Virus record (IMG/VR): IMGVR_UViG_3300032086_000581
Location: 1 to 23,605 of that record
Reading direction: 5' to 3' (one strand)
Length of the DNA stretch: 23,605 nucleotides
Source of the DNA: a virus
Part shown: in pieces, positions 364 to 4,053 of the stretch
How positions within the stretch are numbered: position 1 is the stretch's first letter
Layout: each line of letters begins with the position of its first letter
Translations under genes and position numbers: made by a program
Notes under the pieces: generated by a model
The model's database searches: none
What the model was told of the DNA's origin: nothing
Seen by the model: only the letters and a program-made list of their open reading frames with translations

Positions 364-1884
364 CTAATAGACGTTTTTTAATGATGATACAGTATTGTCT
401 AGGTTTTTAGTGTTCATTTTACCTAGTACATTCGTTGTATTAGCGTTTTGAATTGTGTTAGTAGGCGCTGTGATTATATTGTTTTGCATTTGATTATCAG
501 GTAACAATTTTTGCAACATATTTTCTAAATTGTCTGTTTCTAAAGTTGTTCTAACCACAGTTCTTTTTGAGTCTATGTTTACTATATCTTTCATATTGTC
601 AGGTTTAACAACTTCTTCAGCTGATGTTTGTACAACACCATCTATTTCTTTTTCTGCGTTCTTAATATCTTTTGCAGCCAAGGCAGCGTCTATACCTACA
701 CTTGCAGCTGTTCCTGCACCTGGTATTGTACTAGCTGCACCAGAGGCAACTTCCATAGCTGCGCCTGATATATCACCTGACATTAAACGACCTATACCAA
801 AACCTATACCTGCAATTGCACCAATAATAGGTATTTTCTTAATAGCAGATTTAAGTAATGTCTTACCTAATATTTTAGAACCTGCCTTTTTACTTGCTGA
901 TTTCGTTGCCTGATCAGCACCTTTTTTACCAAAAAACTTACTTGCTAATTTAGTGCCTCCTACGCCTGCAGCTACACCTCCGCCTACTGCGGCTGCCCCA
1001 CCAACACCTTCAGCAAGGTCACCCATTATGCCTTCTTCACTATCTACTAATCTTTGTAATAACTCTTTTGACTCGTATGTATCTTCAGCAATCATTTCCC
1101 ACAGATTTTTAGTCTCTTCGTATCTGTCTTGTTCAATTGCTCTTTGTTCTTCTATATTTTCTTCACTAGCAGCAGTTTGTTGTACTGCAGCTGCTCTAGG
1201 TGTTTCAGACGCAAATATATCACGTCTACCTGGTTGTTCGTTTCTTTCTTCTATTGTCTCTTCTAATGCAGCTGATGGTTGTTCAAGTCCACCACCTGCA
1301 ACTTCATCCTCAATACTACGTCTTGCCTCTCTAGCAATGTCTTGAGCCTTTCTTCTTTCTGCTCTTCTAACTTCTTCTTCACCTGCTTCTATTCGTTCTA
1401 TCTTACGTGTGATAGCAGTACCTAAAATAGGAATACCACCTAGTGTTCTAGCTGCAAGTTTAAGAGGTTTAAATTGTTTTGCTAAATCTCTAAATGCAAG
1501 TTTAGTTCTTAATAAAGGACCTGCAATTGAATTTAACTCTTCTACAACAGGCTGTACCACTTTTGCAATGTATGTGGCTTCTGTATCAGTAAATCTACCT
1601 TTGTCAACACTACCTGGTAATTCAGATAATAATGTTGAATACTTTTCTATTGTGTCTTTTAAAAATGTAAAATCATTATCAGCAATAGCGTCTAATTGAC
1701 CTTGAAAGTTTTGAACAACAGATACAGCAGCATTTGATATACCTTCTCTTCGTATAAATTCTTGCCCTAACTTTTCTTCTTTTTGTATTTGTAATGAAAA
1801 TGTTTGTGCAGCTTCTGATATTGCTACAGTATCTTTGTCTTGTCTTTTCTTTTGCTCTGCTAGTAATTGACTAAAGTTTGCCAT
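364..1884 (-). CDS. Tape-measure-like / baseplate hub protein (gp29 position)
   Basis: A 506-aa protein. The N-terminal half is helical and charged (an R/E/A-rich stretch around residues 160-220). The middle (about 290-400) is glycine- and alanine-rich and hydrophobic, with repeated GIGFG/GAGTA-type segments that look membrane-active. The C-terminus is polar and N/T-rich. Coiled coil followed by a hydrophobic domain is typical of tail tape measure proteins, and it lies between the gp26-like and gp48-like genes where T4 has gene 29 (590 aa). I do not see a diagnostic gp29 sequence motif, so the role rests on architecture and order. There is no clear Shine-Dalgarno before ATG at 1884, which follows the upstream stop by one nucleotide. 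Confidence 0.5.
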   Translation of the reverse strand: MANFSQLLAEQKKRQDKDTVAISEAAQTFSLQIQKEEKLGQEFIRREGISNAAVSVVQNFQGQLDAIADNDFTFLKDTIEKYSTLLSELPGSVDKGRFTDTEATYIAKVVQPVVEELNSIAGPLLRTKLAFRDLAKQFKPLKLAARTLGGIPILGTAITRKIERIEAGEEEVRRAERRKAQDIAREARRSIEDEVAGGGLEQPSAALEETIEERNEQPGRRDIFASETPRAAAVQQTAASEENIEEQRAIEQDRYEETKNLWEMIAEDTYESKELLQRLVDSEEGIMGDLAEGVGGAAAVGGGVAAGVGGTKLASKFFGKKGADQATKSASKKAGSKILGKTLLKSAIKKIPIIGAIAGIGFGIGRLMSGDISGAAMEVASGAASTIPGAGTAASVGIDAALAAKDIKNAEKEIDGVVQTSAEEVVKPDNMKDIVNIDSKRTVVRTTLETDNLENMLQKLLPDNQMQNNIITAPTNTIQNANTTNVLGKMNTKNLDNTVSSLKNVY

Positions 1885-1887
1885 TTA

Positions 1888-2163
1888 TTATTTCTGTATA
1901 TTTGTTTTTTTACCGTTTACGTATAATCCAAACCATGCAGCCCCAGCACCAACTACTACTGATACTAACCCTGCCTGTGCGTTATTTGGATTTTCTAATG
2001 CCATAAACCAAGTCACTACTTCGTAAAATGCAAAACCGTAAAGTATCATCATAAGTCTAGGCACAGTTCTCCAGTTTGATAAAAATTGTGGTAATTCTTC
2101 TTTTAAAAACCACCATACCCATTTGATTGATCCAGTGACTTTTTCTTTGATTTCTAAGTTCAT
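1888..2163 (-). CDS. Small two-helix membrane protein, holin-like
   Basis: This 91-aa protein has an amphipathic, tryptophan-rich N-terminus (residues 1-30), a hydrophobic helix around 34-56 (LMMILYGFAFYEVVTWFMAL) and a second around 64-82 (AGLVSVVVGAGAAWFGLYV), ending in a basic tail. Size, two helices and charged C-terminus fit small phage holins, and similar proteins occur in the tail regions of marine T4-like phages. The start ATG overlaps, as ATGA, the stop of the -1 frame that extends gp26, implying translational coupling. No lysis gene is adjacent, so holin function is only a suggestion. Confidence 0.5.
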   Translation of the reverse strand: MNLEIKEKVTGSIKWVWWFLKEELPQFLSNWRTVPRLMMILYGFAFYEVVTWFMALENPNNAQAGLVSVVVGAGAAWFGLYVNGKKTNIQK

Positions 2164-2348
2164 CTTCTTTGTCTCTCTTTTAGTTTCTGATTTTCATCTT
2201 TAATATGCTGTATCAACATATCAATATATATTTCCCTTTCCCATGGTAACATATGTTCTAATTCTGTCAATGAATATTTATGATGTTGCATTAACAGAAA
2301 ATTCACACGATAAAAATTTTCTAGGTTTTCATGTGAAAGGGTAATTAA
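2160..2348 (-). CDS. -1 frame extension of gp26 (probable frameshifted tail assembly chaperone, gp51 position)
   Basis: Right where gp26 ends, a run of eight T lets ribosomes slip into the -1 frame, which stays open for about 62 codons and stops with TGA overlapping the ATG of the next gene. The peptide contains NFYRVNFLLMQHHKYSLTE, then LEHMLPWEREIYIDMLIQ, and a charged tail. It looks like an ordinary conserved coding domain, not random sequence. Reading could also start internally at ATG 2291, giving a 43-aa protein, but the coding-like part begins upstream of that Met and no Shine-Dalgarno is evident. Known precedent: lambda gpG/gpGT-type tail chaperones use a -1 frameshift at the same genomic position, next to the tape measure gene. 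Frameshifting here is inferred from sequence. Confidence 0.65.
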   Translation of the reverse strand, partial: LITLSHENLENFYRVNFLLMQHHKYSLTELEHMLPWEREIYIDMLIQHIKDENQKLKERQRR

Positions 2349-3040
2349 AAAAAATCAGCTGCACCGTTAAATGTCAACGCAAACTTTTTGCCTGATTTAG
2401 GGTTTTCATACTCAATCTTATGACTTATTTTAGGCATATTATTGAAAAACTCCATCAGTTGTTTGTATTGTTTTTGCGTTAAACTGTTAACATATTCGTC
2501 TAATTCTTCTTCGGTAATATTGTTTCTATCGTAAACATCTTCACCTTTGTAAATTGTTTTAATAGAATCTTTAAGCAAACTAAAATTGTTTTCTGTTTCA
2601 GACTTTGTGTTTGTATATGACATAATTGTAGGATATTGTAAGATCACACCATAACCTGATTCAAATTCTACTTTGTTGTCAGGTTTATTTGTTGTGTCTA
2701 TCTTAATATCTTCTAAATTTAGTTCATAATCAACCACTTGTTTATCATCATCAGGACATTTTAGTTTTAATTTAATTACCTCACCAACTGACTTACCTCT
2801 AATCTTTAAGTACAATGCCTCAAAGTCAAAGATAGGTAGTTTAGAAACATCAATATTATCAAACACACAAGCCTGAACCGTGTCTATGATAGATTGTCTT
2901 ATCTCTTCATCATTATTACTTTCTAATGCCATTAGCATAACTTTTTCTTCTTTTACAAGAAAAGGTCTATACTGCACTAATTGACCATTAGAAGGAAGTT
3001 TAGTTGAATATTTTGGTACCTCGTTTATTGGTAACGCCAT
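2345..3040 (-). CDS. 26: Baseplate hub protein, T4 gp26-like (T4_baseplate family)
   Basis: A 231-aa protein beginning MALPINEVPKYSTKLPSNG with an early YRPFLVKEEKVMLMALES motif typical of gp26-type proteins of marine T4-like phages (T4 gp26 is 208 aa). In T4 this is a baseplate hub component or assembly factor. A C-terminal helix-rich region includes LDEYVNSLTQKQYKQLMEFF, followed by a predicted beta section. It lies downstream of the tail-tube-like gene and upstream of the tape-measure-like gene, the canonical order. The gene ends inside a T8 tract that probably directs -1 frameshifting into a C-terminal extension. ATG at 3040 is preceded by AAGGAG a few nucleotides upstream (minus strand), which supports the start. 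Confidence 0.75.
   Translation of the reverse strand: MALPINEVPKYSTKLPSNGQLVQYRPFLVKEEKVMLMALESNNDEEIRQSIIDTVQACVFDNIDVSKLPIFDFEALYLKIRGKSVGEVIKLKLKCPDDDKQVVDYELNLEDIKIDTTNKPDNKVEFESGYGVILQYPTIMSYTNTKSETENNFSLLKDSIKTIYKGEDVYDRNNITEEELDEYVNSLTQKQYKQLMEFFNNMPKISHKIEYENPKSGKKFALTFNGAADFF
2348..2354 (-). promoter_or_regulatory. Putative -1 frameshift slippery heptamer T TTT TTT
   Basis: In the gp26 frame the end reads GAT TTT TTT TAA, so the heptamer T TTT TTT fits the X XXY YYZ rule and the stop codon follows directly. After a -1 slip, translation continues through the extension down to 2160. I see no strong downstream stem-loop, only a short TTTCA/TGAAA inverted repeat. Confidence 0.6.
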
Positions 3041-3060: not shown

Positions 3061-4053
3061 TTAAAAGAATGGTGGAAATACTCTACCACCAAACACTCTC
3101 CCTATCGGGAATCTTGTTTTAATTTGATTCAATACATCACGGCCCGCTCTTCTTATTTCAGGTGGCAACTTACTTATGATACCACCAAACGGTCCTCTAA
3201 ATCTAGCATCCTTTATCTCACCAACACCATCTATATCACCCTCAAATTGTGTATCTTCATTACTTCTTAAATTTGCGTTTGATCTCCAATATCTGTAGTT
3301 AAAGGTTACTTGTTGTCTTGCTATTTGATCTTTGTTTCCGTATGATAATTCTATCGGTGCAATAATTTTAGGATATGCCTCTATTAATTCTACATAATAT
3401 CCACTTAATGTTAAATTAGCAAGTGGTCCATAATTACTAACACCATCAACTTTAGTATTCGTTGTTTCATTTTTATTTTCATGTAAAGGATAAATTAATA
3501 CTCTACCTGTATATTCATCATAGAAATTTAAATTGTATGTTCTATTGTTTACTATTAAATTTTGCCAAGACTCAAATACAACTCTTTCTGATAACTCACT
3601 GTCTAACATAAAAGATAAATTCATTGTACCAAACTCTAATCCTCTAGCAATGTTTCTTTCTGGACCATAGAATTGATTTGCTGCTGTATCAGTTATTGTA
3701 CGTTCTGGCAATTGAGCTGTATCACAAAAGAAAAATAATCTCTCTCTTAAATTGTTTTTAGTTTGATTTAAAAATTGAAAATCTGTCTCATATTCTATAA
3801 ACTCCATACCTTGTAGAGTTTCACTTGTAAATGTTTTAGGAAATTCTAATACTACTAAAAACTTGGCAGGTCTGTAGAAGCCTTCAGCGCCTGCAACCAT
3901 AGACCTAAACTTATTAACTGTTGTATTTCTATTAGGCTTTCTATTGTTTAATCTTTTTCTTGCCTTGTCAGGATCAAAACCTTTATCTCTTGGTAAACCT
4001 ATTCGTATATCAAAAGGACCTGGTATAGGTAATCGTTGTCTAATTATTGCCAT
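3061..4053 (-). CDS. 54: Tail-tube-like baseplate protein (T4 gp54-like; gp19 fold family)
   Basis: 330 aa, close to T4 gp54 (320 aa), the baseplate protein that primes tail tube assembly. Visible tube-fold signatures are FLVVLEFPK (about 64-73), CDTAQLPERTITDTAANQ (about 108-125), a LNFYDEYTGRVLIYP segment and an AYPKIIAPIELSYGNKDQI strand pair followed by a FNYRYW motif. These match the gp19/gp48/gp54 tube-protein family pattern. A basic N-terminus and C-terminus flank this core. The ATG at 4053 overlaps a 27-codon upstream ORF and is preceded by GGAAG. Whether it is gp54 or gp48 cannot be settled by eye; the gene cut by the window edge at 1-346 looks more gp48-like. Confidence 0.65.
   Translation of the reverse strand: MAIIRQRLPIPGPFDIRIGLPRDKGFDPDKARKRLNNRKPNRNTTVNKFRSMVAGAEGFYRPAKFLVVLEFPKTFTSETLQGMEFIEYETDFQFLNQTKNNLRERLFFFCDTAQLPERTITDTAANQFYGPERNIARGLEFGTMNLSFMLDSELSERVVFESWQNLIVNNRTYNLNFYDEYTGRVLIYPLHENKNETTNTKVDGVSNYGPLANLTLSGYYVELIEAYPKIIAPIELSYGNKDQIARQQVTFNYRYWRSNANLRSNEDTQFEGDIDGVGEIKDARFRGPFGGIISKLPPEIRRAGRDVLNQIKTRFPIGRVFGGRVFPPFF

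Follow-up and report, generated by a model that had tools for sequence, protein, structure and literature searches.

Organization of the gp26 locus

The window analyzed here is a fragment of 23,605 bases, positions 1 to 23,605 of the IMG/VR record IMGVR_UViG_3300032086_000581, and appears to derive from a marine T4-like phage. A search of the window for Rfam families and tRNAs found none. The locus lies on the minus strand and consists of the following features, listed from 5' to 3' along that strand:

3061..4053, minus strand: tail tube or tube initiator protein, directly upstream of gp26 (PF23849, PHROG 45)
2345..3040, minus strand: gp26, the putative short tail assembly chaperone (TAC-N), 231 aa, read in the zero frame (PF12322, PHROG 150, AlphaFold model)
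2348..2354, minus strand: slippery heptamer T_TTT_TTT inside a U8 run (2347-2354 on the plus strand), seen in the sequence and conserved in homologues
2345..2347, minus strand: zero-frame stop TAA right behind the slip codons, its position kept across families
2160..2348, minus strand: -1 extension of 62 codons plus TGA, the gp51 domain or C-terminal part of the predicted TAC-NC (PHROG 634; dN/dS 0.08-0.2 in relatives)
1888..2163, minus strand: next ORF, encoding a membrane-type protein of 91 aa, with an overlap between its ATG and the extension's TGA (PHROG 10198)
364..1884, minus strand: probable tape measure protein, 506 aa, assigned from its position downstream of the chaperone gene

Translation of the minus strand (3040..2345) confirmed that gp26 ends with GAT TTT TTT TAA within a run of eight T's, as the earlier note had described, and that a slip into the -1 frame opens 62 codons (2348..2163) up to a TGA (2162..2160), which shares bases with the start codon of the next gene (ATG, 2163..2161). 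Just 5' of the slip site, the -1 frame is closed by a stop (...RCS*FFLITL...). Upon shuffling of the extension segment, at least 61 codons stayed open in 0.16% of the shuffles. The T8 run at the end of gp26 is the sole one on the minus strand of the window, and gp26 alone among the 43 minus-strand ORFs carries an in-frame T_TTT_TTN no more than five codons from its stop. The predicted junction peptide of the gp26-gp51 fusion in the window is FALTFNGAADFFLITLSHENLENFYR.

A tail tube-type gene thus precedes gp26. The chaperone gene had also been proposed to lie immediately before the tape measure gene; the two are not adjacent, as the 91-aa ORF intervenes, and ORF 364..1884 is the likely tape measure gene by virtue of its position. 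Pelagiphage Mosig has an ORF of the PHROG 10198 family in the corresponding position. The protein encoded by 364-1884 contains a long Ala/Gly-rich hydrophobic stretch, to which its PHROG matches, named as peptidase or endolysin, are confined.

Family assignment and predicted fold of gp26

Profile searches assigned gp26 to PF12322 (T4_baseplate, E=3e-58) and PHROG 150 (baseplate hub, E=9e-72), and a search for relatives in the PDB at the sequence level found none. The AlphaFold model of gp26, with a pLDDT of 86.5, was compared to known structures using Foldseek and VIA-align, and its best PDB match is the HK97 tail assembly chaperone (PDB 2OB9), which superimposes on residues 1-85 of gp26 with a Z of 7.4 over 84 residues and a Foldseek E of 0.53, a Z below 8 being one that may mean a common arrangement only. 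The next matches are the uncharacterized small proteins 3FGX (Z 6.8) and 5IR0 (Z 4.5), followed by unrelated chains from 2.4 down. The predicted model is suggestive of a tail-assembly-chaperone-like fold for the N-terminal part of gp26.

A gp26-like match of 51% identity over residues 1-153 is found inside the 4.9-Mb chromosome of a "Heimdallarchaeota" MAG (L329, CP070695.1) and is possibly a misplaced phage contig. A Porticoccaceae MAG contig (L322, NZEU01000015.1) encodes a chaperone 89% identical to that of the window, and a 188-kb Nonlabens contig (L303, NZ_RMVE01000006.1) may be a T4-like phage genome.

Conservation of the slip site and the -1 frame

Loci drawn from IMG/VR, GTDB contigs and named phages were surveyed, giving 342 sequences including the window; families, 162 in number, were defined by clustering at 85% identity. 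The gp51 domain is present in 331 of these sequences, among which T4 and Aes012 have it in a separate fused gene; the 11 sequences without it include several contigs that end inside the gene. Leaving out T4 and Aes012, all 329 remaining loci have the gp51 domain behind gp26 and in the -1 frame, and in none of them does it lie in frame or in the +1 frame. The motif T_TTT_TTN is located at the junction in 325 of these loci (158/162 families), so that the T run and the open -1 frame, for both of which the earlier note had asked for a check in homologues, are kept in 325/329 and 329/329 loci, respectively. The zero-frame stop is positioned 0-1 codons past the slip site in 156/162 families. Moreover, all 158 families with the heptamer use TTT as the first Phe codon, compared to 69% TTT among Phe codons elsewhere, and the codon preceding it ends in T in nearly all slip-site families.

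The four loci without T_TTT_TTN, all from Ackermannviridae (L044, L045, L047 and L048), have shorter T runs. Their gp51 domain still lies in the -1 frame, and a TTTCA core is common to all four. As this core replaces the heptamer, a single tRNA-Phe codon may serve the slip in these phages.

A sequencing error or a decayed gene in the window contig might split one reading frame into two, and the homopolymer is all that speaks for it; isolates and hundreds of contigs with T runs of differing lengths show the same layout, which refutes this explanation and leaves it a negligible probability. Alternatively, RNA polymerase might slip on the U8 run and generate mixed mRNAs that join the two frames, in line with the runs of 7-9 T's in the window and its close kin. 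However, the run has only 6 T's in 134/162 families, and runs of six T's are generally too short for efficient RNA polymerase slippage.

Signals flanking the slip site

Upstream of the slip site, a Shine-Dalgarno (SD)-like tetramer ends 7-12 nt 5' of the heptamer in 142/162 families, against a background of 6.8% at matched gene positions. The motif results from a conserved Glu-Gly pair, the Glu of which is GAG in 74% of cases compared to 29% elsewhere (p=1e-23); because of this excess of GAG, the nucleotides of the site appear to be selected too. The clade of the window has no SD-like motif upstream of the slip site, but an Asn at that position and a T run of 7-8 bases instead. Across the survey, the absence of the SD-like motif is associated with longer T runs (Fisher p=5e-4, a value that ignores shared ancestry).

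Downstream of the slip site, the RNA of the relatives is predicted to fold more stably than its shuffles (mean z -1.5), whereas the upstream side is not distinguished from them (mean z 0.0). The consensus fold of the window clade contains two predicted hairpins:

2302..2337, minus strand: predicted stimulatory hairpin of 9 bp with an 18-nt loop, 10 nt past the heptamer (clade consensus fold)
2262..2299, minus strand: second predicted hairpin, tentative (clade consensus fold with few substitutions and no covariation)

The first hairpin reaches z=-5.0 against column shuffles in the consensus of eight sequences, in which covariation is absent; it is weak in the window sequence alone (z about -1.5 to -1.9), and one clade member, L016, folds differently and lacks it. 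A consensus downstream hairpin was sought in the three largest cyanophage groups as well, and none stood clearly above shuffles. A search for a single downstream hairpin shared by all relatives likewise found none, the hairpins being clade-specific.

SD-like motifs and downstream hairpins are signals to the ribosome, which further argues against slippage of the polymerase. Because most relatives combine six-T sites with these ribosome-type signals, we infer that the slippage is ribosomal and not transcriptional, and consider polymerase slippage unlikely.

The gp51 domain and selection on the -1 frame

The earlier note had remarked on the protein-like composition of the extension. Searched on its own, the extension hits PHROG 634 ("baseplate hub assembly catalyst") with E=2.7e-28; it is therefore the same domain as the gp51 of cyanophage records. 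In the databases, this stretch appears as a separate gene "gp51" in cyanophage records, and as a hypothetical gene or no gene at all in others. Such records imply a small gene with its own start, which would be translated by coupled re-initiation after the end of gp26. In many cyanophages, an ATG does occur after 3-4 codons of the -1 frame, and the records annotate gp51 from this ATG; initiation might also take place at rarer codons, such as ATT or CTG.

The pattern of substitution points away from a separate start. In families where extension codons 2-14 contain no ATG, GTG or TTG, the dN/dS of these codons in the -1 frame is 0.21 in 42 independent pairs and 0.16 across 140 pairs. Reading these pre-start bases in either of the other frames gives a dN/dS of about 2, and the remainder of the extension gives 0.08. 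Purifying selection on the codons that precede any usual start, in many families with the first ATG, GTG or TTG at least 14 codons in, indicates that they are translated without one, which favors frameshifting over re-initiation. In the window itself, the first GTG is the 15th extension codon and lies within the conserved domain. In the relatives, the SD-like motif is located too far upstream for an ATG 3-4 codons past the slip site to use it, whereas its spacing is the usual one for frameshift stimulation. In addition, the annotated lengths of gp51 differ among records (about 30-60 aa), and the T_TTT_TTN heptamer is left unexplained by re-initiation. Altogether, a separately initiated gp51 is very improbable, and it ranks below ribosomal slippage, as do polymerase slippage and an assembly error.

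Synonymous change in extension codons 1-10 (window 2160-2348 and relatives) is about 0.5-0.7 of expectation, a reduction that probably exceeds the effect of the overlap with the zero-frame stop.

The "gp51, baseplate hub assembly catalyst" of cyanophages and pelagiphages is thus most likely no catalyst in its own right but the part that gp26 gains through the frameshift, and the annotations in several hundred records would be corrected accordingly.

Gene copy number and the genes 26 and 51 of T4

All 19 complete phages of the frameshift type have one PF12322 gene per genome, whereas T4 and Aes012 have two, namely a short gene (26) and a long gene in a single frame (51). A second PF12322 gene fused in frame to the gp51 domain is absent from the 19 complete relatives; it is also absent from the 23.6-kb window record, which is a fragment.

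L036, 5803-6429 and 6480-7229: T4 genes 26 and 51, divergently placed

T4 gp51 combines PF12322 and PHROG 634 in one frame and is the counterpart of the long form, as T4 gp26 is of the short one. The Phe-Phe end has been retained in T4 gene 26, the sequence there being GAG TTC TTT GAG, without a slippery heptamer. The two genes have the appearance of a frameshift pair that has been resolved. In a tree of the short and fused proteins, the T4 copies stand apart on long branches, with frameshift types on both sides; owing to these long branches, the time at which the duplication took place stays unsure in this tree. On balance, we lean slightly towards the single gene with a -1 frameshift being ancestral in the T4 superfamily, with an internal SD and a poly-U heptamer in most lineages and, in the window clade, a longer U run that a downstream hairpin accompanies in most members; the essential T4 genes 26 and 51 would then have been derived by duplication, after which the slip site was lost and one copy was locked in the fused form. 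The lineages would form a natural series, in which recoding signals are exchanged, an SD for a longer U run and hairpin, and are finally superseded by gene duplication in T4.

Two tail assembly chaperones predicted from one gene

The anatomy of the locus, its conservation, the selection on the -1 frame, the fold resemblance and the single copy in complete relatives together make it highly probable that one gene encodes two tail assembly chaperones by a predicted ribosomal -1 slippage. The earlier note had read the locus as a programmed -1 frameshift, and at the level of sequence all that this reading predicts, namely the slip site, the frame, a conserved domain, selection and signals in relatives, was found. 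The majority of ribosomes would terminate at the TAA and release the short gp26 (TAC-N) of 231 aa. In a minority, tRNA-Phe on U UUU UUU would slip one base back, and reading in the -1 frame would yield the gp26-gp51 fusion (TAC-NC) of 293 aa. If the products act as lambda gpG/gpGT do, the short domain may coat the tape measure protein, and the extension may recruit tail tube subunits. A major short product and a minor fused one is the likeliest reading, with their ratio and roles taken from this analogy.

Comparison with known systems

Pairs of the G/GT type make both products in a fixed ratio; the products bind the tape measure protein and are absent from virions. The locus shares with lambda gpG/gpGT a predicted -1 slip shortly before the chaperone ORF ends, next to a tail tube-type gene and near the probable tape measure gene, as well as a long form with a C-terminal extension and, in the gp26 model, an N-terminal fold that resembles a tail assembly chaperone. 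In all 329 loci, the second ORF lies in the -1 frame and overlaps the end of the first, and the selection on codons ahead of any ATG, GTG or TTG indicates that it is read without a start of its own, as is typical of such pairs. By contrast to lambda, the slip site here is a poly-U heptamer with a stop within 0-1 codons and, in most relatives, an SD-like stimulator. The likeliest mechanism in the window, judged by analogy, is of the lambda G/GT kind.

The dnaX gene of E. coli has an internal SD about 10 nt upstream of an A-rich slippery heptamer, followed by a hairpin and an early stop. Most relatives of the window resemble this layout, whereas the window itself has no SD; the two systems also differ in that the heptamer of dnaX is A-rich and its shifted product is the shorter one.

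T4 gp26 and gp51 (Vladimirov, Gautam and Davidson 2022) belong to the same PF12322 family, but they are encoded by two divergently placed genes with no heptamer in gene 26, compared to one gene with a frameshift in the window. PMC10885494 credits Vladimirov et al. 2022 with the observation that, in some T4-like phages, the short form and the fused form have a gene each. The earlier note knew of no such frameshift in the T4 group, which appears to be wrong, as PMC12846349 attributes to Vladimirov et al. 2022 a description of poly-T signals for a -1 shift in the chaperone genes of T4-like phages. According to PMC12846349, the chaperone gene of phage Adele (Vandenendeviridae / Andersonviridae) likewise has a -1 frameshift at a T-rich slip motif and a downstream ORF misannotated as a separate gene; it differs in phage family and in its motif, GTTTTT. 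Given these accounts, the present case is a well-supported example of a known mechanism; possibly new here are the wide range of loci surveyed, the test for selection, the SD-like and hairpin signals around the slip site, and the contrast between one and two copies.
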